Assembly: GCF_009796765.1 (NCBI RefSeq)
Contig: NZ_CP047023.1
Span: forward strand, 1,657,501-1,721,500
Source: Paraglaciecola sp. L3A3
GTDB lineage: Bacteria; Pseudomonadota; Gammaproteobacteria; Enterobacterales; Alteromonadaceae
Direction: 5' to 3'
DNA length: 64,000 nucleotides
The notes beneath the pieces were generated by a model. It was not told where the DNA came from and searched no databases. It saw nothing but the letters and a program-made list of their open reading frames with translations. A program made the translations under genes and the position numbers. Each line of letters starts with the position of its first letter. The stretch's first letter is position 1. Positions 12,240 to 49,952 of this stretch are shown here, in pieces.

Positions 12240-15200
12240 CTACATATTTGTCTGTAGACTTTTTATTGTTTGTTTTCGCCATAAAAAATAAACGGCCGGC
12301 ACTACAAATAGTGAAAGTATTAAAGCACTTGCCATACCTCCCACCATAGGAGCGGCAATACGACTCATTATTTCAGATCCTGTTCCGCTGCCATATAAAA
12401 CTGGCAATAATCCAATGATCACAGTGGCCACTGTCATAATGACGGGGCGAATACGGGCGCCAGCACCTGACAGTACACTATTGGCAAGTTGTTCATGGGT
12501 GATTGCCTTGGTATTTTGTTGCTGACTGTCAATTAAGCTTTGGTATGCCTGATTTAAGTAAACCAACATGATCACGCCTATTTCTACTGCCACACCTGCT
12601 AAAGCAATAAAGCCCACCCCAACCGCCACCGACAAATTAAAGCCCTCTATATATAACAAATATATCCCGCCAATCATGGCAAAAGGTAAGGTACAAATAA
12701 TAATGGCCACTTCGGTAAAACTGCGAAAGCTTAAATATAACAGCAGCATAATAATGGCTAATGTTAAGGGTAAAACATATTGCATTTTTTCACTGGCCCT
12801 TTGCATATATTCATATTGGCCAGCCCAGTTAAGGGTATAACCCTGAGGGAGGTCTAGTTCTTGTTTGAGTAATGATTTAGCCTGCTGAACATAATTTCCT
12901 ACGTCGATATTTTCAATGTCTATGAAGGTCCAACCATTTATTCGTGCATTTTCACTTTTAATTGCAGGAGGACCATCTTCAATCAGTATATCGGCTACAT
13001 CTGCCAAAGTGATATGTTGACCATTGGCTGTCACTATAGGCAACAGAGCCAGTTGTTCTGGTGAGTCTCGGTAACTTTGTGGATAACGCAAATTAATTGG
13101 ATATCGTTCTAAACCTTCCACTGACTGGCTGATGTTTTTGCCACCCACAGCACTGCTGATTATCTGTTGTACTTCAGCCATGTTCATCCCATATTTGGCT
13201 GCTTTAACTCGGTCGATGTTTATTTTTAAATAACGGCCACCTGCGACCCGCTCTGAATAAACCGAGGCCGAACCCGGTAGGTTTTTTAATATACGCTCAA
13301 TCTCTTGGCCTATTTGTTGGATCACAGCTAAATCGCTGCCCGCAATTTTAATACCTATGGGGGTTTTAATACCTGTGGCTAACATATCGATACGAGTTTT
13401 GATTGGCATCACCCAGCTATTGGATAAGCCGGGAAACTGTAATAAACCATCTAACTCTTCACGTATCTTGGTTTTAGTCATGCCTGCGCGCCATTCACTT
13501 TCAGGCTTAAATTGAATAAAGGTTTCAATCATAGTCAAAGGCGCTGGATCTGTGGCGGTATCAGCACGGCCTATTTTACCAAATACAGTTTTAACTTCAG
13601 GTACAGTGCGAATGAGCTTATCGGTTTGTTGCAATATTTCTCTGGCTTTACCTACAGATAGAGCCGCGTAGGTAGTAGGCATATACATTAAATCTCCCTC
13701 ATCTAAAGGTGGCATAAATTCAGTACCAATTTTAGTTAAAGGATAAAAACCTAATACACCTATTATGCTTGCCACCAGTAGAGTGGTTTTTGGAACACTT
13801 AAAACAAAGCGTAGGGCTGGTAAATACAAAGCTTTAAGTAAACGATTAATGGGATTTTTTTGTTCGCTGACAATTTTTCCGCGAATAAAAAATCCCATCA
13901 GTACCGGCACTAAGGTTACTGCAATACCTGCTGAAGCGGCCATGGCATAGGTCTTGGTATAGGCGAGGGGAGCGAACATTTTACCTTCTTGGGCTTCAAG
14001 GATAAAAACAGGTAAAAAACTGACAGTTATGATCAATAAACTAAAAAACAGTGCTGGGCCTACTTCGGTAGCGGCTTTACTCACTACTTGCCAACGATTT
14101 TCGTTGGTTAACTTGGTTTTCTCCATATGTTTATGCATATTTTCTATCATCACAATAGCCCCATCTGTCATAGCACCTATGGCAATCGCTATGCCTCCTA
14201 AGGACATGATATTGGCATTCACACCTTGCCAATACATGATGATAAATGACACTAATATTCCCAAGGGTAAGCTGACAATAGCCACCAATGATGAACGGAT
14301 ATGAAACAAAAATATTGCGCAGATCAGGCCGACTATTAATAACTCTTCAGCTAATTTTGACCATAAATTATTCACGGCATTGTCGATTAGCTCTGAACGA
14401 TCGTAAACCGGCACTATTTCTACGCCATCAGGTAAACTCATTTTGAGCTCATCTAATTTGGTTTTCACTCCTTCTATGGTTTGCCGTGCATTTTCAGCAA
14501 AACGCATGACCACTATGCCACCAGTCACTTCTCCCTGACCATTTAGTTCAGCTATGCCTCTGCGCATTTGTGGGCCTAAAGTTATATCTGCTACATCAGC
14601 TAACAGTAGAGGGGTACCTTGATTATTTGCCCCTAGAGTAATAGCTGCTAAGTCTGCAATATTTTCAATATAACCATTGGTATTGACCATATATTCAGCT
14701 TCGGCCATTTCTATCACCGAAGCGCCCACTTCTTGATTGCCTTGTTTAATTGCCCTTTGTATATGTTGCAAGGGAATGTTGTAAGCCCGTAATTTATTGG
14801 GATCGACTACTACTTGGTATTGTTTAACCATCCCCCCAATAGAGGCCACTTCTGACACGCCTGCTACAGTTTGTAATTCAAACTTTAACAACCAATCTTG
14901 CAGGCTACGTAATTGGCTAATGTCGTGTTTGCCTGTGCGGTCAACCAAGGCATATAAATACACCCAGCCAACCCCAGTGGCATCTGGACCCAGTTGCGGT
15001 TTAGCGGCCGCGGGTAAATTAGCCGACACTTGAGATAAATACTCTAAAACACGGCTTCTGGCCCAGTACATATCGGTTTTGTCTTCAAAAATAACGTAGA
15101 CGTAAGAGTCGCCAAAAAATGAAAAACCTCTAACCGTTTTAGCTCCAGGTACTGATAACATGGCGCTTGTTAAAGGATAGGTTACTTGGTCTTCTACTAC

Positions 15201-15377
15201 TTTGGGTGATTGCCCCGGGTAACTGGTTTTGATAATAACCTGTACATCAGATAAATCAGGAATGGCATCTACAGGTGTGTTTTTTAATGACAACAAGCCT
15301 GCACCAATCACAATACAAGTTATCAATAATACAAAAAAACGGTTGTTGATAGACCAACGAATAATGTGTGAAATCAT
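12240..15377 (-). CDS. cusA: Copper/silver efflux RND pump CusA
   Basis: A 1045-residue heavy-metal RND pump that exports Cu(I)/Ag(I) from periplasm and cytoplasm through a CusCBA tripartite channel, powered by the proton gradient. It has 12 transmembrane helices with two large periplasmic loops. The TM4 proton-relay region (GAMTDGAIVMIEN) is intact. The methionine triad of E. coli CusA (M573, M623, M672) appears as M566, M616 and M665 with identical 50/49 spacing, arguing for Cu(I)/Ag(I) rather than Zn/Co specificity. It abuts the cusB stop codon with no gap, so the genes are translationally coupled as the last members of the operon. Confidence 0.94.
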   Translation of the reverse strand: MISHIIRWSINNRFFVLLITCIVIGAGLLSLKNTPVDAIPDLSDVQVIIKTSYPGQSPKVVEDQVTYPLTSAMLSVPGAKTVRGFSFFGDSYVYVIFEDKTDMYWARSRVLEYLSQVSANLPAAAKPQLGPDATGVGWVYLYALVDRTGKHDISQLRSLQDWLLKFELQTVAGVSEVASIGGMVKQYQVVVDPNKLRAYNIPLQHIQRAIKQGNQEVGASVIEMAEAEYMVNTNGYIENIADLAAITLGANNQGTPLLLADVADITLGPQMRRGIAELNGQGEVTGGIVVMRFAENARQTIEGVKTKLDELKMSLPDGVEIVPVYDRSELIDNAVNNLWSKLAEELLIVGLICAIFLFHIRSSLVAIVSLPLGILVSFIIMYWQGVNANIMSLGGIAIAIGAMTDGAIVMIENMHKHMEKTKLTNENRWQVVSKAATEVGPALFFSLLIITVSFLPVFILEAQEGKMFAPLAYTKTYAMAASAGIAVTLVPVLMGFFIRGKIVSEQKNPINRLLKALYLPALRFVLSVPKTTLLVASIIGVLGFYPLTKIGTEFMPPLDEGDLMYMPTTYAALSVGKAREILQQTDKLIRTVPEVKTVFGKIGRADTATDPAPLTMIETFIQFKPESEWRAGMTKTKIREELDGLLQFPGLSNSWVMPIKTRIDMLATGIKTPIGIKIAGSDLAVIQQIGQEIERILKNLPGSASVYSERVAGGRYLKINIDRVKAAKYGMNMAEVQQIISSAVGGKNISQSVEGLERYPINLRYPQSYRDSPEQLALLPIVTANGQHITLADVADILIEDGPPAIKSENARINGWTFIDIENIDVGNYVQQAKSLLKQELDLPQGYTLNWAGQYEYMQRASEKMQYVLPLTLAIIMLLLYLSFRSFTEVAIIICTLPFAMIGGIYLLYIEGFNLSVAVGVGFIALAGVAVEIGVIMLVYLNQAYQSLIDSQQQNTKAITHEQLANSVLSGAGARIRPVIMTVATVIIGLLPVLYGSGTGSEIMSRIAAPMVGGMASALILSLFVVPAVYFLWRKQTIKSLQTNM

Positions 15378-16946
15378 TTATTGTTCCTCTTGGCCGCTAA
15401 TTTGATAAGCCACTATGACAAACTCACCTTGCTGAATTTCGAAAGTAAAATGTATCGATTGGCCCTGAGATAAGGGGGCTAAAGCAAGTGAGTCGTCTAG
15501 ATGAAAATCCATAGTGGCAGCGGGCCGACCCCATTTTTCGATCGCTTCTCGACTGATATTTATGCTGCGGATGTCTGCTGTTATACTATTGATCACGCCC
15601 ATTACACTGGCTGATTGTATTGTCGCTGGTGGCATATCCGTTTTGGACTCTATAGACATATTTGGCATATTTGGCATATGTTGCATATCACTCATGTTAT
15701 CCATTTCACTCATATCATCCATTTTCGACATGCGTTTAAAGTCCGAGTCAATGCTGCTTTCTGAATCCAATAAAAACTGGCCAGACACCACCACCTGATC
15801 TTCTGCTGTTAAGCCGGATAAAATTTGTGCTTGTTTATGGGTGACTTGGCCTAATGTCACGGCCACTGATTTGAATTGGGGTTGCTGTTGATCTTCTGTT
15901 AATACTAGTACCACTCTGTTTTGTTTACCTGTGCGGATTACTGCTTGTCTTGGCACTAATAAGCTAGGTTGTGATTGTTTCGTTTTGATTTGCACTTGGC
16001 CAAACATATTGGCTTTTAGTTGTTGCTCAGAATTGTCAAAACGTAAGCGAGCTCGGATTGTTCTATTAACAGGATTTAAACTTGGATATATATAGTCGAC
16101 TGTTCCTTGCCATTGCTGACCAGGGAATGCGGCAAGAGTCATGTTTGCAGCAAGTTCATTTTTTAAAAATGAGGCTTGGTTTTCATGTACTTCTACTTCA
16201 ACCCATATTTCAGTTAAATCAGCTATCGTCATCAAGGGATTACCCGGTTGGATAAAAGCGCCTTGTTTAATATTTAATTGCTCAATCACTCCTGATTGAG
16301 GAGCATAAAAAGTGATCTTGTTGAGTGGTTTTTTGGCAGTTTCTAAAGACTGAATAGTCGATTCAGAAACTTGTAGAGTGAGTAACTTTTGTTTTGCTGC
16401 CTTAATTAAGTCGTTATTTTTTCTTTTTAGCGCCAGTAAATAATCTTGTTGGGCATTAACTAATACAGGGGAATACAAGGTATATAGGGCTTGCCCTTTA
16501 GTGACTGCCTGGCCTTGGTATTTAACATGGAGTTGTTCTACCCAACCTTCCACTCTAGGATTAATAAAAACTAATTTGTCTTGGTTATATTGTAGATAAC
16601 CTGCAGCATCTATATTTAATGCTAATCTAGCCAACTTAACTTTTGCCGTGCGCACGCCTAAATTATTCACCACCGATGGACTAATGCTCACCGTGCCTGC
16701 ACTGGTGTTATTGTTTTGAGGGTAAACAGGTATCAATTCCATGCCCATAGGTGAAAGCCCAGGTTTATCTCGGCGGTAGTTTTTGTCCATAGGCGCCACC
16801 CAATATAAAGGGGCTGAAGCATCGGCAGCATTATCCTGATTTTTGCTGTCAGGCTTGGTTGTCTCTGGGATAAATTGCTTGGCCACTATGTAGGTCAAAA
16901 CCGTGCCAGTGATTAAACCTATTATCAAACTTTGATAATTTTTCAT
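15378..16946 (-). CDS. cusB: Copper efflux adaptor CusB with C-terminal CusF-like domain
   Basis: A 522-residue membrane-fusion protein. It comprises an N-terminal anchor helix, a heavy-metal-binding segment near residues 48-75 (KPGLSPMGMELIPVY), then the barrel-sandwich, alpha-hairpin and beta-barrel regions (about 95-400). After these come a methionine-rich linker (about 410-440, many DM/NM repeats) and a CusF-like OB-fold of about 70 residues at the C-terminus. It links CusA to the outer-membrane channel and loads metal. Oddity: in the CusF-like part, the histidine and first methionine that bind Cu(I) in E. coli CusF seem replaced (region KWGRPAATMDF keeps one Met), so this domain may not bind copper the classical way. 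The stop of cusC overlaps its ATG by one base. Confidence 0.92.
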   Translation of the reverse strand: MKNYQSLIIGLITGTVLTYIVAKQFIPETTKPDSKNQDNAADASAPLYWVAPMDKNYRRDKPGLSPMGMELIPVYPQNNNTSAGTVSISPSVVNNLGVRTAKVKLARLALNIDAAGYLQYNQDKLVFINPRVEGWVEQLHVKYQGQAVTKGQALYTLYSPVLVNAQQDYLLALKRKNNDLIKAAKQKLLTLQVSESTIQSLETAKKPLNKITFYAPQSGVIEQLNIKQGAFIQPGNPLMTIADLTEIWVEVEVHENQASFLKNELAANMTLAAFPGQQWQGTVDYIYPSLNPVNRTIRARLRFDNSEQQLKANMFGQVQIKTKQSQPSLLVPRQAVIRTGKQNRVVLVLTEDQQQPQFKSVAVTLGQVTHKQAQILSGLTAEDQVVVSGQFLLDSESSIDSDFKRMSKMDDMSEMDNMSDMQHMPNMPNMSIESKTDMPPATIQSASVMGVINSITADIRSINISREAIEKWGRPAATMDFHLDDSLALAPLSQGQSIHFTFEIQQGEFVIVAYQISGQEEQ

Positions 16947-18292
16947 TAGTTAACCTCTCTGTCGTTTTGTGAACTGGCATGTCCCAGTAAATAGGCTAGA
17001 TGTGCCTGAGTTTTTAGTGTTTGTTTGCTAATGTTTATCATCTCAACGTGTGCATCATGTTGCTTAATTTGGGCTTCAATAACCTCTACTAACTGGCCAT
17101 CATTTTGGCTAAAAGCAGCAAGGGCGGCTTTATGTTGCGCTTCTAATTGGGGAATAATATTTTGTTTATACCCCTGATATCTTTGCTCTAAATTGATTGA
17201 TTGTTTGTATAGAGTGTTCACTTGGCCTAACATTTTTTTGATCAGTAATCGTTTTTCGGTTTCGATAGATCTGGCTTGGTAGCTGGCTGCAGCGACTTCA
17301 TTATCATTCCTTTGATTAGAAAACAGTGGCAACTCCACTTTAATCCCCACAGAGAAAAAATCAGCTCGGCTACCAGTAAATGGATCATCATCGCGATAAG
17401 CATAACTTGCGCTTACTCCCCATAAAGGCTGGTACTTTTGTTTCGCTAAATCTACCGCGCTGACTTTGGCTTTTATTTGTTGTTGTATGGCTAAAACAGC
17501 AGGATGTTGACTGAGTAGATCTGCTAATTGATGTATTTGTTGTGTGGCCAAAATATCTGTTAAGTGATTAGGGAACTTGGTTATTTCAGGCCATGCTTTG
17601 CTGTCTGCAAGCTTAATGTTCGACTCAGGTAACCAACGACTTAATTGAGCTAAAGCGGTATCAAGTTGCTGCTGCATTTTCAGAGAGTGGTCATCTATTA
17701 AGGCTAACTTTATTCTAGCTTGAAGAATATCTTGCTGTTGACTGTTGCCTTGAGTCGATGTGTAGCTGGCATTAATGGTTTCGATCAATTGTTCGAACAA
17801 GGGGCGGTCTTTAGCAATATGATTAATCGCCTGTTGCGCAGCAAATGCATCTAAGTATAACTGTGAAACTGTTAGTTCGAGTTCAGCGAGTCTATTTTTT
17901 CTGAGTAGAGGATGTTGAGCGGCAAGTTGATTATATTGTTTTTGTTTAAGCTGGCGACTGGCACCTCGGGTAAAGTTTTGGCTAATGGCAAGCTTAAATT
18001 GGCTCATCGGTTCCTGGGAAAAGTCGAAACCATCGGTTGGTAAATTAAGTAAATCTACTGATATGGATGGATCCGGTAAAGAGTCAGACGCTTCCCCTGT
18101 GGCTAATAATGCTCGCTCGGTTAATTCGCTGCCTTTTAGCCAAACATCATCTTGTTTGGCCAGCTTTATGGCTGTGGGTAACGTGAGATTTGCCCAACTG
18201 GAATTAGATAAAAATAACAGGCTAAATAAGCTCAAGCTTATGAGCTTTGAGCGGTCGATAAATATAGTTTTGCGGTCAACTAATAAGTGCAT
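16946..18292 (-). CDS. cusC: TolC-family outer-membrane channel CusC
   Basis: A 448-residue outer-membrane efflux protein with a signal-peptide-like segment (LISLSLFSLLFLSNSSWA, residues about 17-34) and two repeats of the OEP coiled-coil/barrel fold. It is the outer-membrane exit duct of the Cus pump and is identified as CusC by its place directly before cusB and cusA. Unlike E. coli CusC there is no lipobox, so it is probably not lipidated. AGGG sits upstream of the ATG. About 155 bp separates it from the Cys-rich gene upstream on the same strand. Confidence 0.85.
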   Translation of the reverse strand: MHLLVDRKTIFIDRSKLISLSLFSLLFLSNSSWANLTLPTAIKLAKQDDVWLKGSELTERALLATGEASDSLPDPSISVDLLNLPTDGFDFSQEPMSQFKLAISQNFTRGASRQLKQKQYNQLAAQHPLLRKNRLAELELTVSQLYLDAFAAQQAINHIAKDRPLFEQLIETINASYTSTQGNSQQQDILQARIKLALIDDHSLKMQQQLDTALAQLSRWLPESNIKLADSKAWPEITKFPNHLTDILATQQIHQLADLLSQHPAVLAIQQQIKAKVSAVDLAKQKYQPLWGVSASYAYRDDDPFTGSRADFFSVGIKVELPLFSNQRNDNEVAAASYQARSIETEKRLLIKKMLGQVNTLYKQSINLEQRYQGYKQNIIPQLEAQHKAALAAFSQNDGQLVEVIEAQIKQHDAHVEMINISKQTLKTQAHLAYLLGHASSQNDREVN

Positions 18293-18447: not shown

Positions 18448-18795
18448 TTATGCCAATATGGGAGGTTTGCGTAAATTTAGAGGGTAAATTTCTGGGAGTA
18501 ATAGATGATAACTATTGATAGCTGGCGATTTGCTAGGCTGATTGATTATAGCTAGCAGGTTGATAATAGCTGCAGAACCGCAAGCCGTATCTAGACAGAC
18601 ACAGGTGTCACTGTCTTGGGTGTCGCAGCAGTCCATATTCATACAATCATCTTCTTGCATATCCATCTCTTCAGTCATCATATGTTTTTCTTCTGCATCA
18701 GTATGCTCTGCAGAACAGAGTACTTGCACAGATGCAAATGATTGATTAATCAAGATGCAAAACATTAAACAAATTGTGAGTAAATTAATTTTCAT
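18448..18795 (-). CDS. Small Cys/Met/His-rich exported protein heading the cus operon
   Basis: A 115-residue protein with a Sec signal peptide (LLTICLMFCILINQSFA, residues 4-20). The mature part of about 50 residues is packed with metal-ligand residues: runs such as HMMTEEMDMQEDDCMNMDCC and further cysteines (DTCVCLDTACG). A hydrophobic stretch and a proline-rich tail ending PPILA follow. It resembles the CopL/DUF2946-type small proteins found next to copper genes, but I cannot assign a family firmly. It is the first gene before cusC on the same strand, so a periplasmic copper-binding or copper-sensing role is inferred. Confidence 0.65.
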   Translation of the reverse strand: MKINLLTICLMFCILINQSFASVQVLCSAEHTDAEEKHMMTEEMDMQEDDCMNMDCCDTQDSDTCVCLDTACGSAAIINLLAIINQPSKSPAINSYHLLLPEIYPLNLRKPPILA

Positions 18796-41842: not shown

Positions 41843-43155
41843 GAGCCTGTAACATACTTTGTGTAACTGCCTATCATAATTTACTCTAAGCAGAGTTTAA
41901 GGATAGGCAATGAAAATGAATAAAGAATTAGAAGCGTTTGCTAAAGAAGCAGCGAAAGGTATTAAAACCCCTCAAGATTTAAATGAGTTTAGTCAGATGC
42001 TCAAAAAAATCACGGTCGAAGCAGCATTGAATGCGGAGATGGATGAGCATTTAGGCTATGGCAAACATGAAAAATCAGCTGTCAGCAATAGCCGTAATGG
42101 TAAAACTAGTAAGCGCATAAAGACCGAGGACGGTGAGTTTGAGCTTGATACTCCTCGTGATAGAGATGGCTCTTTTGCGCCTCAGCTTGTCAAAAAACAA
42201 CAAACTCGTTTTACCTCAATGGATGAAAAAATCCTATGGTTATACGCTAAAGGCATGAGTACCCGTGAAATTGTCGAAGCATTTGATGAATGGTACGGTG
42301 CAGAAATATCTCCCACCTTGGTATCAAGAGTCGCCAATGCCGTCATTGACGAAATCACTGAATGGCAGGCTCGGCCACTGGATACCGTTTATCCAATCGT
42401 TTATATGGACTGCATTGTCATTAAAGTACGCCAAGATAATAGGGTGATGAATAAATCTATCTTCTTAGCCTTGGGTATCAATCTAGACGGGCACAAAACC
42501 TTGTTGGGCATGTGGATAGCTGAGAACGAGGGAGCCAAGTTCTGGTTAAACGTCCTCACGGAATTACAAACCCGTGGAGTAAAAGATATCTTTATCGCTT
42601 GTGTCGATGGCCTAAAAGGCTTTCCAGAGGCCATAAATGCAGTGTTCCCTCAAACACAGGTTCAGCTCTGTATCGTACATATGGTGCGTAATTCGTTAAG
42701 GTTTGTGCCTTGGAAAGATTACAAAATCGTGACCACTGAACTGAAAAAGGTTTACCAAGCCAACACTGAGGATGAAGCCTTACTTGAGCTGCAGCGTTTT
42801 GGCGAAACCTGGGATGACAAATATCCACAAATCAGCAAGTCGTGGCATGCTAATTGGCACAATCTCAATACAATATTTAAGTACCCTAGCGATATACGTA
42901 AAGTAATTTACACCACTAATGCAATCGAATCACTTAACAGCGTCATTCGAAAAGCGTTGAAGAAGCGGAAAGTATTTCCCAATGATGATTCAGCTAAGAA
43001 AATGGTGTACCTGGCTATTATGGATGCATCTAAAAAATGGACCATGCCGATCCAAAACTGGCGTCAGGCAATGATCCGATTTATGATTGAGTTCGAGTCT
43101 AGACTCGAAGGACATATTTAACTAATGGCAGTTACACAGAATCTGTTACATCCTC
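41843..43155 (+). mobile_element. IS256-family insertion sequence (1313 bp)
   Basis: The element is bounded by 29-bp imperfect terminal inverted repeats (41843-41871 and 43127-43155, 24 of 29 matching, inner end GTGTAACTGCC). It is flanked by an 8-bp direct repeat CTTTTTAA (41835-41842 and 43156-43163), the duplication size expected for IS256. One complete transposase gene fills it. Structure and reading frame are intact, so it may be recent and active. Confidence 0.92.
41910..43121 (+). CDS. IS256-family (mutator-type) transposase
   Basis: A 403-residue DDE transposase. The mutator signature is clear: N-terminal DEHLGYGKHE, first catalytic Asp in YMDCIVIKV, second in ACVDGLKGFPEAI, and the Glu in TTNAIESLNSVIRK. 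It has full family length with no frameshift. It catalyses copy-out movement of the surrounding element, whose ends lie 67 bp before its start and 34 bp after its stop. Confidence 0.96.
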   Translation: MKMNKELEAFAKEAAKGIKTPQDLNEFSQMLKKITVEAALNAEMDEHLGYGKHEKSAVSNSRNGKTSKRIKTEDGEFELDTPRDRDGSFAPQLVKKQQTRFTSMDEKILWLYAKGMSTREIVEAFDEWYGAEISPTLVSRVANAVIDEITEWQARPLDTVYPIVYMDCIVIKVRQDNRVMNKSIFLALGINLDGHKTLLGMWIAENEGAKFWLNVLTELQTRGVKDIFIACVDGLKGFPEAINAVFPQTQVQLCIVHMVRNSLRFVPWKDYKIVTTELKKVYQANTEDEALLELQRFGETWDDKYPQISKSWHANWHNLNTIFKYPSDIRKVIYTTNAIESLNSVIRKALKKRKVFPNDDSAKKMVYLAIMDASKKWTMPIQNWRQAMIRFMIEFESRLEGHI

Positions 43156-43420: not shown

Positions 43421-45484
43421 ATGTTTAAAATCAAAAGAATCCAAGGTCAGTTATTTTGTGGATTGCTTTTTTCTTCACTTGCGCTGTCTTTATCAGTAAA
43501 TGCCAAAACACTTTATGTGGCGACTGATGGTGATGATAGTAATGATGGGCAAATGGCATCGCCGCTTGCCACGTTTTCTCAGGCTAATAGCTTATTAGAA
43601 GCGGGAGATACGTTAATTATAAAAGCTGGGGTGTATCGTCAAACATTACAAGTGAGTAAAAGTGGTAATGAACAATCACCCATATTAATTAAAGCTGAAG
43701 ATAACGCAGAAGTGATTATTCGTGGTACAGAGCCTGTGAGTGGTTGGTCTGTGTATCAAGGTAATATCTATCAAGCCAATGTGAATAGTGAAATAGAAGA
43801 AGCCTTTCGCCAGCTGTATCATAAAGATGAAATTATGGATATTGCTCGCTGGCCGAATAATACAGATGGCGATTTATATACCATTGATGCCGCTCCGTTA
43901 TCAGGCAAAGGTACTGTATCAAGTGTCAATGCCGACAATATTCCAGACTCTGATTTAACTGGCGGTTACATTTGGTATTTAGGTGCTCACTCTGGTGCCA
44001 GTTGGACTCGTCAAATTTCAAGCTCTACTACGGACTCGGTTTCGTTTACTGCTATAGACGATACTAAATGGCCTTTTAATCCACATGCTCCTACTATTCA
44101 ACGTCACGATAACTTTGGACGCTTTTTTGTATTTGGAAAATTAGCCTTACTCGATCATAAAAACGAATGGTTTTATGATGCAGAACAACAAATTATCTAT
44201 TTGCAAACAGCAGATGGCCAAGCGCCAGCAGACAACGAAGTGGAAATTGCTAGCAGGCAAAACGCCGTCATATTAGATGGCCAATATATTTCCATTGAAG
44301 GCTTAGAAATATTCGGGGCCAATGTCCGAGTTAATGGTAATAACAACACGATTAAAAATAATAAGATATACCATGGCCTAGAACGTATGGATGATTTAAC
44401 TAATTCATCTGCACAAGTTGGTGATGGTTCAATCAACGTATTAGGTACCCATACGACAATTACAGATAACGTGATTGAACATGGATCATTGAATGGTATT
44501 TTTGTCGCAGGTTGGTCTGGTCGTGGTCAATATGTGCATATTGAAAACAATACCATTCAGTATTTTGATACTTTGGGAATTCATGCTAGTCCTCTTAGAG
44601 TCAATGCCAATGATGCCACTATATTACGTAATACAGTGGCTTACACTGGTAGAGATGGAGTGTTTTTACCTAGTCAGAATAGTGAACTAGGATATAACGA
44701 CGTGTCTCGCGTAGGGCTGATTAATAATGATGGCGGTGTATTTTATACCGTAGGCAATGATGACAACAAAAATACCCGTATTCATCACAACTGGTTTCAT
44801 GATTCGGTCGGTCCTAGTTATGCCGATGGCCGTACCGCTGGTATATATTTAGATAACAACAGTAAAGGTTACCAAGTTGATCATAATGTGGTGTGGAATG
44901 TCACTTGGGCGGGAGTTCAATTAAATTGGGCTAACTGGAACAATAATATTTATCACAATACTATTATCAATGCTGGTCAAGCAATGGGCGAATGGGTAAA
45001 TGGCTATACACGTCAAGATAATCGTGTATGGAATAACTACACCAACGTGGGGGATTGGCTAGTTGATCCGGCATATGATCTCGACAGCAACTTAATTGAA
45101 ACTGAACAAGCCCAACTCATTGATCCTGAGCAATTGGATTTTATGCCTCTTGATACCTCACTATTAATCGATCAAGGGCGCACAATTGATGACTTTGAAA
45201 AACCGTTCGCAGGGCCTTCTCCCGATATTGGAGCCTATGAATTAGGTGGTGTTAAATGGACTGCCGGTGTGAATGCTATTTTAGATGATTGTACAGAATG
45301 TCAAAGTAACCCTGATGCAGATCCTGTAGTCGAACCTGCTCCAGAGCCTACGACACCAGAACCCACAACACCAGAACCCACAACACCAAGCACTGATAAT
45401 TCATCTGGTGGTGGTAGTTTTGGTTTTAGTTTAATCGGTTTAGCCTTGTGCCGCTTATTTTGGACACGCAGAAAATCTTGCTAA
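43421..45484 (+). CDS. Secreted right-handed beta-helix protein with GlyGly-CTERM tail
   Basis: A 687-residue exported protein. The signal peptide (cleavage after VNA, about residue 28) is followed by a DUF1565-like opening (LYVATDGDDSNDG). A right-handed parallel beta-helix (about 120-530) shows recurrent N-x-I...N-x-I rungs such as NNTIKNNKIYHG and NNNIYHNTII. A low-complexity TPEPT linker (about 640-660) follows, then a GlyGly-CTERM tail (SGGGSFGFSLIGLALC, then RRKS). The fold is that of polysaccharide lyases and related glycan enzymes, but catalytic residues were not identified. The tail is a rhombosortase-processed sorting signal. It stands alone next to the IS. Confidence 0.8.
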   Translation: MFKIKRIQGQLFCGLLFSSLALSLSVNAKTLYVATDGDDSNDGQMASPLATFSQANSLLEAGDTLIIKAGVYRQTLQVSKSGNEQSPILIKAEDNAEVIIRGTEPVSGWSVYQGNIYQANVNSEIEEAFRQLYHKDEIMDIARWPNNTDGDLYTIDAAPLSGKGTVSSVNADNIPDSDLTGGYIWYLGAHSGASWTRQISSSTTDSVSFTAIDDTKWPFNPHAPTIQRHDNFGRFFVFGKLALLDHKNEWFYDAEQQIIYLQTADGQAPADNEVEIASRQNAVILDGQYISIEGLEIFGANVRVNGNNNTIKNNKIYHGLERMDDLTNSSAQVGDGSINVLGTHTTITDNVIEHGSLNGIFVAGWSGRGQYVHIENNTIQYFDTLGIHASPLRVNANDATILRNTVAYTGRDGVFLPSQNSELGYNDVSRVGLINNDGGVFYTVGNDDNKNTRIHHNWFHDSVGPSYADGRTAGIYLDNNSKGYQVDHNVVWNVTWAGVQLNWANWNNNIYHNTIINAGQAMGEWVNGYTRQDNRVWNNYTNVGDWLVDPAYDLDSNLIETEQAQLIDPEQLDFMPLDTSLLIDQGRTIDDFEKPFAGPSPDIGAYELGGVKWTAGVNAILDDCTECQSNPDADPVVEPAPEPTTPEPTTPEPTTPSTDNSSGGGSFGFSLIGLALCRLFWTRRKSC

Positions 45485-45578: not shown

Positions 45579-46109
45579 TTAGCTAGCTTTTTTATCTAAG
45601 CCCAAAAGGTGGTCAAGAGATAGTTTTCCTGGGCCATGGGCAGTGATGACCATTAGTGCCACAAACCACCAAACAGCTGGGTTCCACCAGTGATCCCATT
45701 CAGGGAATACCGCAAGCTGAATAAACAATGTCATGCCTATTAGTCCTAAAGCACCGAGCCTAGAAAATATACCTAGTATCAACATCACAGGTAATAACAC
45801 TTCAACTACACCGGCGACAATTGCTAGCTTTTCTATGACAAATACAGTGAATGAACCTTCGGTATAATCCAATGTATTGGCGTCACATAATAAAAGAGCA
45901 CCTTCTCGAACAGGGTCTGGACAAAAGAATTCATATAAAAACAAATCATATTTTTCTTCGTTAAAATCCATAAAACCATTCCACTTGCTCAGGCCAGACG
46001 CTAGAAAAACTTTTGCGGTTAGCAGGCGTACAAATAACAATGATAAATCGCCAAAAAACAAGGTGAATTTTTTGCTAAGTGTTTGATATAGATTAATGAT
46101 TAATTTCAT
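45579..46109 (-). CDS. bufD: DoxX-family membrane protein of the bufferin operon
   Basis: A 176-residue DoxX-type inner-membrane protein with four hydrophobic helices (VRLLTAKVFLASGLSKW near residue 25, later LIGMTLFIQLAVFPEWDHWW). Family knowledge: DoxX proteins close bufferin operons and may handle electron transfer or export steps. Its start overlaps the preceding stop by one base (TAATG), so it is translationally coupled. It is the last gene of the operon. Confidence 0.8.
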   Translation of the reverse strand: MKLIINLYQTLSKKFTLFFGDLSLLFVRLLTAKVFLASGLSKWNGFMDFNEEKYDLFLYEFFCPDPVREGALLLCDANTLDYTEGSFTVFVIEKLAIVAGVVEVLLPVMLILGIFSRLGALGLIGMTLFIQLAVFPEWDHWWNPAVWWFVALMVITAHGPGKLSLDHLLGLDKKAS

Positions 46110-46861
46110 TAGAGAGTAATTTCCATGAGTAAATTATTAGCTATTAGTTGTGAAAATACGCTACTTATATCTAATTCACCTGTTGTTAACGCAGCCTCTG
46201 CAGATTCAATTAGTGTATTGGCTAAATGGATATTCGAAATGAAGGTCCATTCTGGTAAGGATAGTACTCGATGAAATATCTGCCCAGAATTACGCCATAA
46301 AATAGTATATTCTGCTTGTTGTTCAATAACCTGTGGTTCAGTGAGTACACCATTTTTTAACATAGACCAAACTTCAGTCACGGCCGATTTATTTTGTAAT
46401 AGTCGTACACTCGCGCCTAAGGCAAATCTTTTAGATTCAATGTCTTCTAGCCAGGAGCTAACTACTTCGTCTGTTGGCGGCACTTGGTCCGTTGCAAAGT
46501 AACACTCATGCCAAGCAAGATCTAAACTTGCTAAGTCAGCTGCATACTCTAATTCAGGGGCTTGTTGTCGAAAATGTTCACCTATAAAATCCGCCATTAA
46601 TTCACCGTACTCTGCTAGCACACTGGTTTTGGGAATATATTTCTGTGAATATTGTCGAGCCAGCATTTTAAAATAGTCTTCACCAAGTAAATTAACGCAA
46701 CTTGGATATTTACGTTTCAGTATGTCTATACATGCAGAAAAGTAGGTGTTTCTGTAGATGAGTAAACGCTCTTGATCTCCCTCATGTGGCAAAAATGATT
46801 GTGTTTGTTGATGTTCACCATGTTTTAGGTAATGTTCAAACCATGCATAGAAGTCAGGCAT
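46109..46861 (-). CDS. bufC: DUF2063 partner protein of the MNIO enzyme (BufC-type)
   Basis: A 250-residue protein. The N-terminal DUF2063 region (about 5-95) carries RLLIYRNTYFSACIDILKRKYP and AEYGELMADFIGEHF; the remainder is a domain common to these partners. In RiPP systems with DUF692 oxidases, DUF2063 proteins recognise the precursor peptide and pair with the enzyme (older annotations call them putative DNA-binding). It starts directly at the bufB stop, with no gap. Confidence 0.82.
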   Translation of the reverse strand: MPDFYAWFEHYLKHGEHQQTQSFLPHEGDQERLLIYRNTYFSACIDILKRKYPSCVNLLGEDYFKMLARQYSQKYIPKTSVLAEYGELMADFIGEHFRQQAPELEYAADLASLDLAWHECYFATDQVPPTDEVVSSWLEDIESKRFALGASVRLLQNKSAVTEVWSMLKNGVLTEPQVIEQQAEYTILWRNSGQIFHRVLSLPEWTFISNIHLANTLIESAEAALTTGELDISSVFSQLIANNLLMEITL

Positions 46862-47704
46862 TTAGTTTTCTTTTGAGCAATGATGAATAAAGTTTGCGGC
46901 GGTTTGTCTTTCGGCCATTAATTCAGCGAAGCTAGGCAAGTCTGAATCTCGTTCTATCAATACCGGTTTAGGACCACTTTTTTGTAACACGTATTGTAAT
47001 AACTGCCAAACTTGTACTGCAACTGCGCAATCGTGTGAATCAATTAATAAGTCGGCTTGAATTGGGTCCTTTGAATGTCCGGCTACATGGATCTCACTCA
47101 CCACATTGAGATCCAGAGTATTGATATATGTATTTGGGTCAATGTTCACATTCGCTGCACTAATAAAAAGGTTGTTCACATCCAGTAGCAAAGAACATTG
47201 TGTTCTATGGGCTAACTCCATTAAAAAGTCAGCTTCGTCTATATCAGACGGTAAGCGAATATAATTAGCCGGGTTTTCTATGGCAATGCTGCGCTGCAAG
47301 GTATCTTGAACTTGCATGACATTGTCAGAAACTGTTTTTAGCGTTTGCTGGGTAAGGGGAATGGGCAGTAAATTATTGAAAAATTGTTCATCTGTAGCTG
47401 ACCAAGCTAAATGCTCAGAAAACGAGGCAATAGGTAAAATATCACACAGCTTCTTTAAACGTTGTAAATGTTGTTTATCTACTGATTTAGGGCCTGCTAA
47501 AGACGCCCCAACACCATGCACACTTAATGGATACCTGCTGGCTATTTCTTTTAATGCGGCGAGGCGAGGGCCTCCATCAATTAGGTAATTCTCGGCATGG
47601 ACTTCAAACCATAACCCTTCAACGACGGCACTAGGCACATCGTTGAAGTACTCTGGTTTTAGACTGACACCTGCATTGTGTGGCAAACTAAAGCTAGATT
47701 TCAC
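46862..47704 (-). CDS. bufB: DUF692-family multinuclear iron oxidase (MNIO, BufB-type)
   Basis: A 280-residue TIM-barrel iron enzyme. Conserved DUF692 blocks are visible: AGVSLKPEYF, WFEVHAENYL, SVHGVGASL, SEHLAWS, IENPANYI, LLDVNNLF, HVAGHS and ERDSDLPSF. Family knowledge: MNIOs oxidise cysteines of a precursor peptide using two or three iron atoms, and in bufferins they form thiooxazole-type heterocycles. The gene starts 12 bp after the precursor gene stop, fitting coupled expression with its substrate. Confidence 0.88.
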   Translation of the reverse strand: MKSSFSLPHNAGVSLKPEYFNDVPSAVVEGLWFEVHAENYLIDGGPRLAALKEIASRYPLSVHGVGASLAGPKSVDKQHLQRLKKLCDILPIASFSEHLAWSATDEQFFNNLLPIPLTQQTLKTVSDNVMQVQDTLQRSIAIENPANYIRLPSDIDEADFLMELAHRTQCSLLLDVNNLFISAANVNIDPNTYINTLDLNVVSEIHVAGHSKDPIQADLLIDSHDCAVAVQVWQLLQYVLQKSGPKPVLIERDSDLPSFAELMAERQTAANFIHHCSKEN

Positions 47705-47716
47705 TGTTGTTCAATA

Positions 47717-48070
47717 TTAAACAATGGGTTTGGTGGATGCGCTGCCATTAGGCGTGACAATAAACTCACACGAACCTTTAGGAGCGTATGTCCAAGCATC
47801 ACCTTGGAAATCTTTAGTAGAGGTTCCTTCACAACTCGTGCCTGGGCCTGCTTTACAATCATTATCGCCAGCTAGTGCAATGCCATAACATTTATCTTTG
47901 CGACCCCTAAGTCTTTTACCTTCTTTCCATTCAGAAACGGCTTTAGTGATCTCAGCTGATGCACCTTCAGCAACAGTTAACTGCGCATTAGGTTTAGCTA
48001 GAGCACTTTGTGTGACTGCTAATGTACAACCTACTGCTAGGGCTAATTTTATACCTTGTTTGTTTATCAT
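47717..48070 (-). CDS. bufA: Bufferin-type precursor peptide (DUF2282)
   Basis: A 117-residue precursor starting at the ATG at 48070 with GGAG nearby; a longer in-frame start would add a non-signal extension. A Sec signal ([17 protein letters not shown]) precedes a mature part with four cysteines in the DUF2282 pattern ([24 protein letters not shown]). Family knowledge: after modification by the MNIO enzyme such peptides bind copper in the periplasm and protect cells from it; the two central cysteines are the expected modification sites. First gene of the operon bufA-bufB-bufC-bufD. Confidence 0.85.
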
Positions 48071-48620
48071 GTTTATTACTCCACTATTTATTAACGAAAT
48101 TAACGTAAATTTTTGTCTAAAACTTATTGGATGATTTGTAAATAAATCTAGTTCATTTCCAACTATCAATAAAAGACCTGATAAGACAATTTAATATTTC
48201 AAAAAATTTAATTTTGTGGGAATTTTAGTGGAAGAAAACTCTTGAGCAGTTTGTTATTTCAGTGTCACTGGAAGACAAATACTTTACTCTTAATGTCAGC
48301 TGTGTTGGTTTTTATCTGCAATATTCTTATTCATCCTGCACTATTTTGTTTCATTTTACTTTGCTGTGCATTTTTTTGGTGCGTTTCTGTCTGTTTATGC
48401 ATGTTCAACCATTATTCAACCGTGTTTTTACTTAACCCTGATTACTTTATTATATTCATTATTGTGAATAACCTGATGGTGGATAAGCGTTACAGGGTGA
48501 TGACGAAATAACTGAAGCATATAAAGGCGATGTGGAACAAGGATTGCTGATGAAGAACGATAATAATTACTAAATGATAAAAATACTCAATGCTAAGTCT
48601 TTGGGCATATTTTTAGTGAA
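48071..48620. other. Divergent intergenic region between bufA and the NIT-ANTAR gene
   Basis: About 550 bp, AT-rich, no convincing gene; a hydrophobic reading frame at 48242-48511 looks like random translation. It must hold the bufA promoter (near 48090-48180) and the promoter of the NIT-ANTAR gene. I could not pick convincing -35/-10 boxes or a known operator. Confidence 0.4.
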
Positions 48621-49952
48621 GTGATAGTGTTTAATCAATATGGAATTCCTTTTATGCCATCAAATAAAGGTATTACAAAGCGTTTTCTGTATGCCGCTAA
48701 AGTTGCAGAATTAGAAACCTTACAACAGTTGTCAAATAACTGTGTATTGGTTTGTCTGGTGTGCAGAGTGATCCACGATTTACAAAAAGAAAGAGGGGTG
48801 AATAATGTTTATTTAGCCTCATCTGGCCTGCATTATACTCAGCGTCGTATTTCGCAAATCACCTCTAGCGAAACCGTGATTAAAGAATTAACCGATTTAT
48901 TGCATGATAATTATTTAAGTAATGATAAAAATGTGCATCACTACCGTTTGTTACATAACATATCCTTAGCGCTACAAGGGATTGAAAATATAGGGTTATT
49001 ACGACACCATGTTAAGAATCATGATATTAGTGTACTTAAGTCAACTCAAGCTTATTGCCGACTTATTTCGGCTTTATTGAATATAGTGTTTGAAGCGGCT
49101 GATATTGCAAGTAATCCCACTATTTCTAGACAATTAGTTGCATTATTTAATTTTATTCAAGGTAAAGAATATGCAGGTCAAGAACGAGCTTGGGGGGCTG
49201 TGGGCTTTGCTGAAACAAGCTTTGCTACCGAGTTATGTCTGAAGCTTCGTTTATTACAAGAAAAACAAAATACCTCTTTTCAGTTATTTATGGAATTTGC
49301 CGACAAACCTTATTTAGAACTGTGGGAAAAACTTTGCCAAAGCAATACAACGTCAGAAGTGTTGCAACTGAGAAAGATGATTGAAAAATTAACCGAAGGT
49401 GAGCGAGTATGTTCAGATATTAGCGAAGTCTGGTATGAAAGAACCACAAATCGTATTGATGAAATGTATAGCATTGAACATGAGTTGACTAATTTTCTGT
49501 TGCTAAGTGCTGAGCAAAATGTCAAAGACGCCGAGGCTGAAATCTCTGACTATAATAAAAAAGTGGATACCTTAGTCGTTAATAATTCATCTGTTTCTAG
49601 TTTGTTGTATAACCTTCATCTGCCGAATTTACAGAATAGTTTTGAATCGCAAAATGAAGACGATTTAGGCGCTGTGTCGACTTACGATAGTTTTACTGGG
49701 CACAAATCATTATTTGAATTGTTAAAGAGTCAAGCTGAACGAATTGACAAAATAAAACATGAGTTAGAGTTAAGTCAAAAAGCTTTGCACGAGCAGCAGG
49801 TTATTAGTCGAGCGAAAGCGCTATTAATAGACAAACTTTCTCTGAGTGAAGATCAAGCTCACCGTAAATTACAAACTACTGCTATGGAGCAAAACTTAAG
49901 TGTTTTTACCGTGGCAACAAAAGCGATTAAGGCCATGCAGGCTCAAGCTTAA
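48621..49952 (+). CDS. NIT-domain antiterminator with ANTAR RNA-binding domain (NasR-like)
   Basis: A 443-residue regulator. The N-terminal NIT sensor domain is all-helical (about 40-290) with the hallmark HDLQKERGVNNVYLASSG, and the C-terminal ANTAR domain (about 375-440) has AKALLIDKLSLSEDQAHRKLQ and the AM.QNLS.F..A pattern. NasR of Klebsiella binds nitrate or nitrite and then a leader-RNA hairpin to prevent termination of the nitrate-assimilation operon. Here no nas gene or target leader lies nearby, so its target is elsewhere. The start is GTG at 48621; an ATG at 48654 is an alternative. Confidence 0.85.
   Translation: MIVFNQYGIPFMPSNKGITKRFLYAAKVAELETLQQLSNNCVLVCLVCRVIHDLQKERGVNNVYLASSGLHYTQRRISQITSSETVIKELTDLLHDNYLSNDKNVHHYRLLHNISLALQGIENIGLLRHHVKNHDISVLKSTQAYCRLISALLNIVFEAADIASNPTISRQLVALFNFIQGKEYAGQERAWGAVGFAETSFATELCLKLRLLQEKQNTSFQLFMEFADKPYLELWEKLCQSNTTSEVLQLRKMIEKLTEGERVCSDISEVWYERTTNRIDEMYSIEHELTNFLLLSAEQNVKDAEAEISDYNKKVDTLVVNNSSVSSLLYNLHLPNLQNSFESQNEDDLGAVSTYDSFTGHKSLFELLKSQAERIDKIKHELELSQKALHEQQVISRAKALLIDKLSLSEDQAHRKLQTTAMEQNLSVFTVATKAIKAMQAQA

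Follow-up and report, generated by a model that had tools for sequence, protein, structure and literature searches.

Does the four-gene operon on the minus strand of Paraglaciecola sp. L3A3 code for an ordinary bufferin, one of a large and recently recognised class of copper-handling peptides, or for a peptide that departs from the class in its sequence and perhaps in its modification? An earlier note on this DNA, made from its letters, had proposed both a complete bufferin-type operon and a variant core. Here the operon is analysed within a window of 64 kb, the whole stretch of DNA examined, and compared with related loci in other bacteria.

Gene content and family assignment

The operon runs in the order precursor, MNIO, DUF2063 protein and DoxX protein with gaps of 12, 0 and -1 bases, and its reading frames and spacings are those the earlier note had described for four coupled genes.

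47717..48070, minus strand: bufA1, DUF2282 bufferin precursor, 117 aa, ATG at 48070 with GGAG ahead of the start
46862..47704, minus strand: bufB, MNIO (DUF692) bufferin maturase, 280 aa, GTG start
46109..46861, minus strand: bufC, RRE-type DUF2063 protein that partners the MNIO, 250 aa
45579..46109, minus strand: doxX, DoxX membrane protein, 176 aa
45506..45531, no strand assigned: terminator-like 9-pair stem in the gap that separates doxX from its convergent neighbour, T-rich on both sides

The precursor (74.2 bits against Pfam PF10048, DUF2282) and the MNIO (300.3 bits against MbnB_TglH_ChrH) score above their Pfam cut-offs, as do the DUF2063 protein (62.9 bits against PF09836, cut-off 27.2) and the DoxX protein (44.9 bits against PF07681, cut-off 23.6). 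The MNIO also matches NCBIfam MNIO_BufB (NF050167), which places it in the bufferin-maturase family, with a score near the cut-off (328 versus 310 bits) and close to the bottom among the matches above it. BufC falls below the cut-off of NCBIfam HvfC (NF050145; 34 versus 142 bits) and DoxX below that of HvfX (NF050144; 38 versus 80 bits). The genome, a single contig of 5.31 Mb, holds one DUF2282 match and two MNIO matches. A search with the precursor returned 546 proteins at E <= 0.001, of which the best 120 were listed; the top homologue, from an uncultured Paraglaciecola, is 92% identical, and several near homologues carry the name BufA1 family bufferin-type metallophore.

The core of a bufferin cluster is described as precursor, MNIO, DUF2063 and DoxX in the available text of PMC12452194. 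The same four families stand in the same order as in L3A3 in the Buf1 cluster CC3254-CC3257 of Caulobacter vibrioides, with 93, 280, 254 and 150 aa versus 117, 280, 250 and 176 aa in L3A3 (PMC3511200, available part). Only the precursor and DoxX are clearly longer in L3A3, a difference in keeping with the pre-core segment and the loop of DoxX described below. The A-B-C-DoxX order recurs in 19 of the 20 distinct loci of the long-segment type that have DoxX in reach, with L076 as the exception.

The assignment of the L3A3 operon to a complete Buf1 bufferin cluster, a published kind, is well supported by these comparisons, and the earlier reading of a complete bufferin-type operon stands on the Pfam and NCBIfam matches, the BufA1-named homologues, the Cys spacing and the MNIO site columns. 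As a bufferin operon the cluster is ordinary; mildly novel are its subtype features and a promoter-like element that it shares with a second locus. Taken whole, with the proposed thiooxazole, copper and ECF mechanism included, the Buf1-type reading is in our judgement very likely correct. The terminator-like stem is weak, since the region holds three such sites versus a shuffle mean of 2.3, and Rfam at gathering scores gave no match between 45000 and 50500.

The precursor and its core

The precursor divides into four parts.

47996..48070, minus strand: putative Sec-type signal peptide, residues 1-25, ending at about the ALA, read by eye
47891..47995, minus strand: 35-residue pre-core segment, residues 26-60 (KPN.QL...), the mark of the subtype, from alignments and from loci with and without it
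47768..47890, minus strand: core, bounded by Cys61 and Cys101, with Cys72 and Cys80 as its central pair
47720..47767, minus strand: C-terminal tail of 16 residues with a TPxGxxS motif

The putative signal peptide shows to the eye a charged start, a hydrophobic stretch and an ALA end, and it holds an additional, fifth Cys. Alignment confirmed the DUF2282 precursor with four cysteines that had been proposed, at residues 61, 72, 80 and 101. In Buf1 the two central Cys are modified and the outer two form a disulfide, and the signal peptide is given as a leader in preliminary terms (PMC12452194, available part); for HvfA this leader role is supported (PMC13419390, available part).

The Cys spacing of 10/7/20 is common to all 121 peptides formed by the query and the best 120 of its 546 homologues, and EG follows the third Cys in 108 of them, a set that is biased because it is made up of nearest relatives. 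Among 24 peptides of the wider order, the spacing is 10/7/20 in 11, 10/8/20 in 8 and 10/6/20 in 5. For the DUF2282 family, 116 four-Cys peptides were taken from loci L001-L142 (119 hits, 3 of them not parsed), a sample that includes the L3A3 peptide twice and one collection picked by core patterns. The pair after the third Cys in these is AG in 76, EG in 18, QG in 13, SG in 6, AA in 2 and TG in 1. Therefore, CEG is a minority form within DUF2282 and not a unique one (18 of 116, versus 108 of 121 in near relatives). The claim that this centre puts the core off the consensus accordingly holds for the family at large and fails among the nearest relatives, where CEG is the norm. The long Ser/Thr/Pro-rich tail had to be given up: 6 of its 16 residues are S, T or P, and the length is ordinary for homologues (15-21 residues). 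Within the tail, P107 and G109 are invariant across 72 sequences and S112 is kept in at least 90%.

A pre-core segment and a DoxX loop mark a subtype

The variant features of the L3A3 locus lie outside the CEG centre and the tail, in parts that the earlier note had left unmentioned. By sequence comparison, the L3A3 peptide is of a subtype with a conserved 35-residue pre-core segment and a partner DoxX with a C-x11-C loop.

45885..45923, minus strand: DoxX C-x11-C loop CPDPVREGALLLC, Cys63 and Cys75, present in 120 of the 120 homologues listed (best 120 of 360)

The distance from signal peptide to first Cys, which depends on an approximate cleavage site, is 3-15 residues in 72 of 76 AG peptides and at least 23 in 17 of 18 EG peptides. 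Sorted by motif, 27 loci are long and 95 short; 6 of the long ones are repeat fetches of the same place, leaving 21 distinct, and the short set includes at least one duplicate (L149 = L016). With duplicates included, the neighbour of the third Cys is E in 22, Q in 4 and A in 1 of the long loci, versus A in 80, Q in 8, S in 4, E in 2 and T in 1 of the short ones.

Among loci in which a DoxX was found, the strict loop motif is present in 18 of 20 distinct long loci versus none of 60 short ones. A looser motif raises the long count to 19 of 20, as the loop of L071 differs in its letters; L077 is without the loop. In one of the 60 short loci, L118, the stop-to-stop DoxX frame contains a match to the loose pattern. 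A class-wide search with the DoxX protein matched 59 of 369 genomes, with a high score only in the L3A3 genome and G351, and the held-out locus of G351 (L180) combines a long CEG precursor with the DoxX loop. Of the 30 loci drawn from this search, L179 has a loose Cys pattern that is not the loop motif, and no Cys pattern was seen in the remaining 27.

BufA1 operons of Paraglaciecola, Aliiglaciecola, Neptunomonas, Marinomonas and Arenicella resemble that of L3A3 in having both long segment and C-x11-C loop, and differ from it by sequence divergence. A structure model of the precursor places a helix at residues 39-49 (pLDDT 83 for blocks 31-50), and the model of DoxX is mostly helical (mean pLDDT 87.1). 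A literature search for BufA1 together with DoxX returned no paper; an earlier description of the subtype is possible in supplements and most subscription papers, which lay outside the scope of the search.

The BufB enzyme and the descent of the subtype

Twelve MNIO site columns were aligned over 20 long-segment BufB rows, one per locus. Ten do not vary across the 20 rows, 18 rows keep the N of DVNN, and the second H of H-x-AGH is H in 9, F in 9 and Y in 2 (H in 58 of 84 short rows). All 12 are present in L3A3 BufB. Which of these columns bind iron is our assumption, with an alignment to 3BWW in support. An apparent loss of iron ligands in long BufB, picked up by regular expressions (HG and EH, 8 and 7 of 20), was rejected, as the alignment has both histidines in 20 of 20.

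The suggestion in the earlier note of a variant modification, drawn from CEG and the tail, finds no footing here, since the neighbour of the third Cys varies (A, E, Q, S, T), the four Cys and nearly all of the checked MNIO site columns are conserved, and the tail is ordinary. A modification of the cysteines other than the thiooxazole pattern would suit the distinct BufB clade (see below), the E after the third Cys, a minority in DUF2282, and the one MNIO site column that varies within the clade. It is nonetheless improbable, as the spacing of the four Cys and almost every site column of the enzyme are conserved and as DUF2282 peptides are described as having little conservation around the Cys and 5-thiooxazoles in all characterised cases (captophorin paper, PMC12668002, available part).

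The BufB tree was built on 131 of 138 rows, after removal of 6 duplicates and a single short row; three identical pairs remain. It places 19 of the 20 long rows in one clade (support 99/91, with a bootstrap that had not settled), and the row outside belongs to L077, the long locus without the DoxX loop. Given that single clade, the pairing of segment and loop points to one shared ancestry, not to independent or repeated co-evolution. L3A3 BufB clusters with those of G052, G009 and Aliiglaciecola, and those of G008 and G012, from the same genus, cluster with Neptunomonas. Two lineages within one genus suggest transfer.

A transposase-like frame, which we take to be of the IS256 type, lies at 41910-43121 on the plus strand, about 2.5 kb from the operon end, and is possibly tied to the patchy distribution of the operon. 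Of 22 genomes of the genus, 5 have a DUF2282 match, one of them partial. This patchiness, the two BufB lineages in one genus and the transposase-like gene nearby would all be expected of a decaying or silent acquisition. We give that explanation very little credence, because the four frames are open and tightly spaced, key residues are conserved and the promoter-like element is kept; a functional bufferin operon is preferred.

A promoter-like element shared with a second locus

Upstream of bufA1 lies a short element, also absent from the earlier note, that was first derived by eye from long bufferin loci as TGAAATWT-N15-GGTCT.

48174..48201, minus strand: ECF-type promoter-like element TGAAAT-N17-GGTCT, exact match, 103 bases to the bufA1 ATG

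Its TGAAAT-N17-GGTCT form resembles ECF promoters. In the L3A3 window the element occurs exactly once, and at no more than one mismatch there are 2 matches versus 0.28 expected. Of the 7 distinct long loci from Alteromonadaceae, 5 carry it exactly, G052 with one mismatch and G048 not at all. Allowing one mismatch, 14 of 121 upstream regions (duplicates included) match, 11 of them long (6 distinct) and 3 short, against a background of 65 in 4000 random equal-length stretches of the window. Among named loci, the exact element is present in 1 of 14 long (L063, Alteromonadaceae) and 0 of 65 short ones, and the Neptunomonas and Marinomonas loci showed no copy of it, as is the case for nearly all loci outside Alteromonadaceae. 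A near form, TGAAAT-N17-GGTTT, stands upstream of the DUF2282 genes of L018 and L024, two short-type loci within the order, and therefore the regulation may reach beyond the subtype.

The genome holds a second captophorin-type locus (L148:6138-8193), about 229 kb before the window, with an EGKCG-repeat precursor of 116 aa, an MNIO and a DUF2063 protein. Operons of this EGKCG/oxazolin (captophorin) kind resemble the L3A3 bufferin operon in their MNIO and DUF2063 genes, the signal-like start of the precursor and the same upstream element, whereas their precursor is of repeat type, their MNIO is distant (30% identity) and the own-genome copy has no DoxX beside it. An MNIO of the EGKCG-locus type (E < 1e-130) is found in 21 of 22 genus genomes. 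Thirty MNIO loci of relatives were surveyed, 25 with a precursor and enough upstream sequence and 5 without a precursor. The element precedes the EGKCG (oxazolin-type) precursor gene at no more than one mismatch in 24 of the 25, exactly in 20; random stretches of 200 bases drawn from these loci match in 124 of 5000 cases. The 25 are related, with matches in 16 of 16 from the same genus and 8 of 9 from other genera of the family. In the own-genome copy a one-mismatch element starts 88 bases ahead of the ATG. Two elements at fixed spacing are thus kept upstream of related genes, with base counts from 28 of 30 sites. The upstream element is a probable ECF-type stress promoter, shared with the EGKCG peptide of the same genome, and gives a regulon hypothesis, open to test, that would join two captophorin families within a single genome.

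In the available part of PMC3511200, chromate and cadmium switch on the Caulobacter operon by way of the ECF factor sigma-F, and in that of PMC7907618, a Haemophilus influenzae operon with a DoxX-like protein, studied with hypochlorite, is under the ECF factor RpoE2. Unlike Caulobacter, with its SigF/NrsF regulation, the L3A3 genome gave no NrsF. Of its 20 sigma-like matches, some of which are response regulators by reading, none lies within about 1.5 kb of an exact copy of the element. A one-mismatch element lies near two, L188 and L196; for L196 the site comes after both the sigma gene and the gene that follows it. The sigma gene of L186 has an H-x3-C-x2-C protein behind it. A scan for sigma-70 promoters fell below chance (4 found versus a shuffle mean of 10.4). 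A literature search for the promoter letters with an ECF sigma factor returned no paper; an earlier description is possible in supplements and most subscription papers, which were outside its scope.

Proposed mechanism and the role of DoxX

By analogy with Caulobacter and Haemophilus, an ECF sigma factor would read TGAAAT-N17-GGTCT under metal or envelope stress. Through the signal peptide, and in the subtype possibly through the 35-residue segment as well, BufC would hold the precursor, while the iron enzyme BufB would convert the central Cys72 and Cys80 to 5-thiooxazoles. The peptide would then be exported by Sec, form the Cys61-Cys101 disulfide and bind copper in the periplasm. DoxX, here in the C-x11-C form that accompanies long-segment precursors, may assist in the inner membrane. 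The thiooxazole chemistry, the regulation and the action of DoxX are drawn by extension from related systems, and copper chelation or buffering is likewise the presumed function of the L3A3 peptide.

It is conceivable, if rather unlikely, that the main job of this bufferin concerns instead a metal other than copper (gold, chromium, cadmium) or oxidative injury to the envelope. The chromate and cadmium induction in Caulobacter and the hypochlorite context in H. influenzae lend themselves to such a role, as does the GIG operon of Legionella, induced by gold and copper (PMC5413113). The published peptides of the class, however, bind copper (PMC12452194, PMC12668002, available parts), and copper is the preferred metal.

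The extra parts that precursor and DoxX have inherited together offer a way into the function of DoxX. In 12 short-type loci (L080, L086, L089, L090, L091, L093, L094, L095, L103, L118, L137 and L138), doxX comes immediately after bufA, and bufB and bufC stand behind it on the opposite strand. The long-type L076 likewise has bufA then doxX, and its stretch of 5.3 kb has no bufB or bufC. This arrangement of bufA and doxX favours a link between peptide and DoxX inside and outside the subtype. PMC7907618 (available part) cites a mycobacterial DoxX-like protein that forms a complex acting as thiol oxidoreductase, and HvfX is termed yet uncharacterised (PMC13419390, available part).

Bringing these strands together, we tentatively propose, as a model with a limited chance of being right in full, that the peptide and DoxX of this marine subtype are a working pair. 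The loop, presumed to lie on the outer face of the inner membrane, would handle the outer disulfide or take copper in a quinone-linked thiol/copper relay, and the partly helical segment would dock to DoxX or BufBC. The bufferin and the oxazolin-type peptide would together make up a single copper-stress regulon, controlled by one ECF sigma factor. The DoxX relay within this model is itself conjectural.

Neighbouring genes

Elsewhere in the window, three genes at 12240-18292 on the minus strand read as a CusABC-type heavy-metal efflux look-alike, with a small Cys/Met-rich, exported-looking protein upstream of them (18448-18795). Convergent with doxX is a gene for a right-handed beta-helix protein (43421-45484, plus strand) with a weak match to chondroitinase B and a C-terminal tail, Ser/Gly followed by hydrophobic residues, that looks like a sorting signal. 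Divergent from bufA, with about 550 bases between, a NIT and ANTAR protein of the nitrate-sensing antiterminator type is encoded at 48621-49952 on the plus strand. Among the other loci compared, that of Microbulbifer rhizosphaerae (L140), in whose stretch no MNIO was found, has two genes for DUF2282 precursors, separated by about 2.5 kb, together with a DoxX gene.
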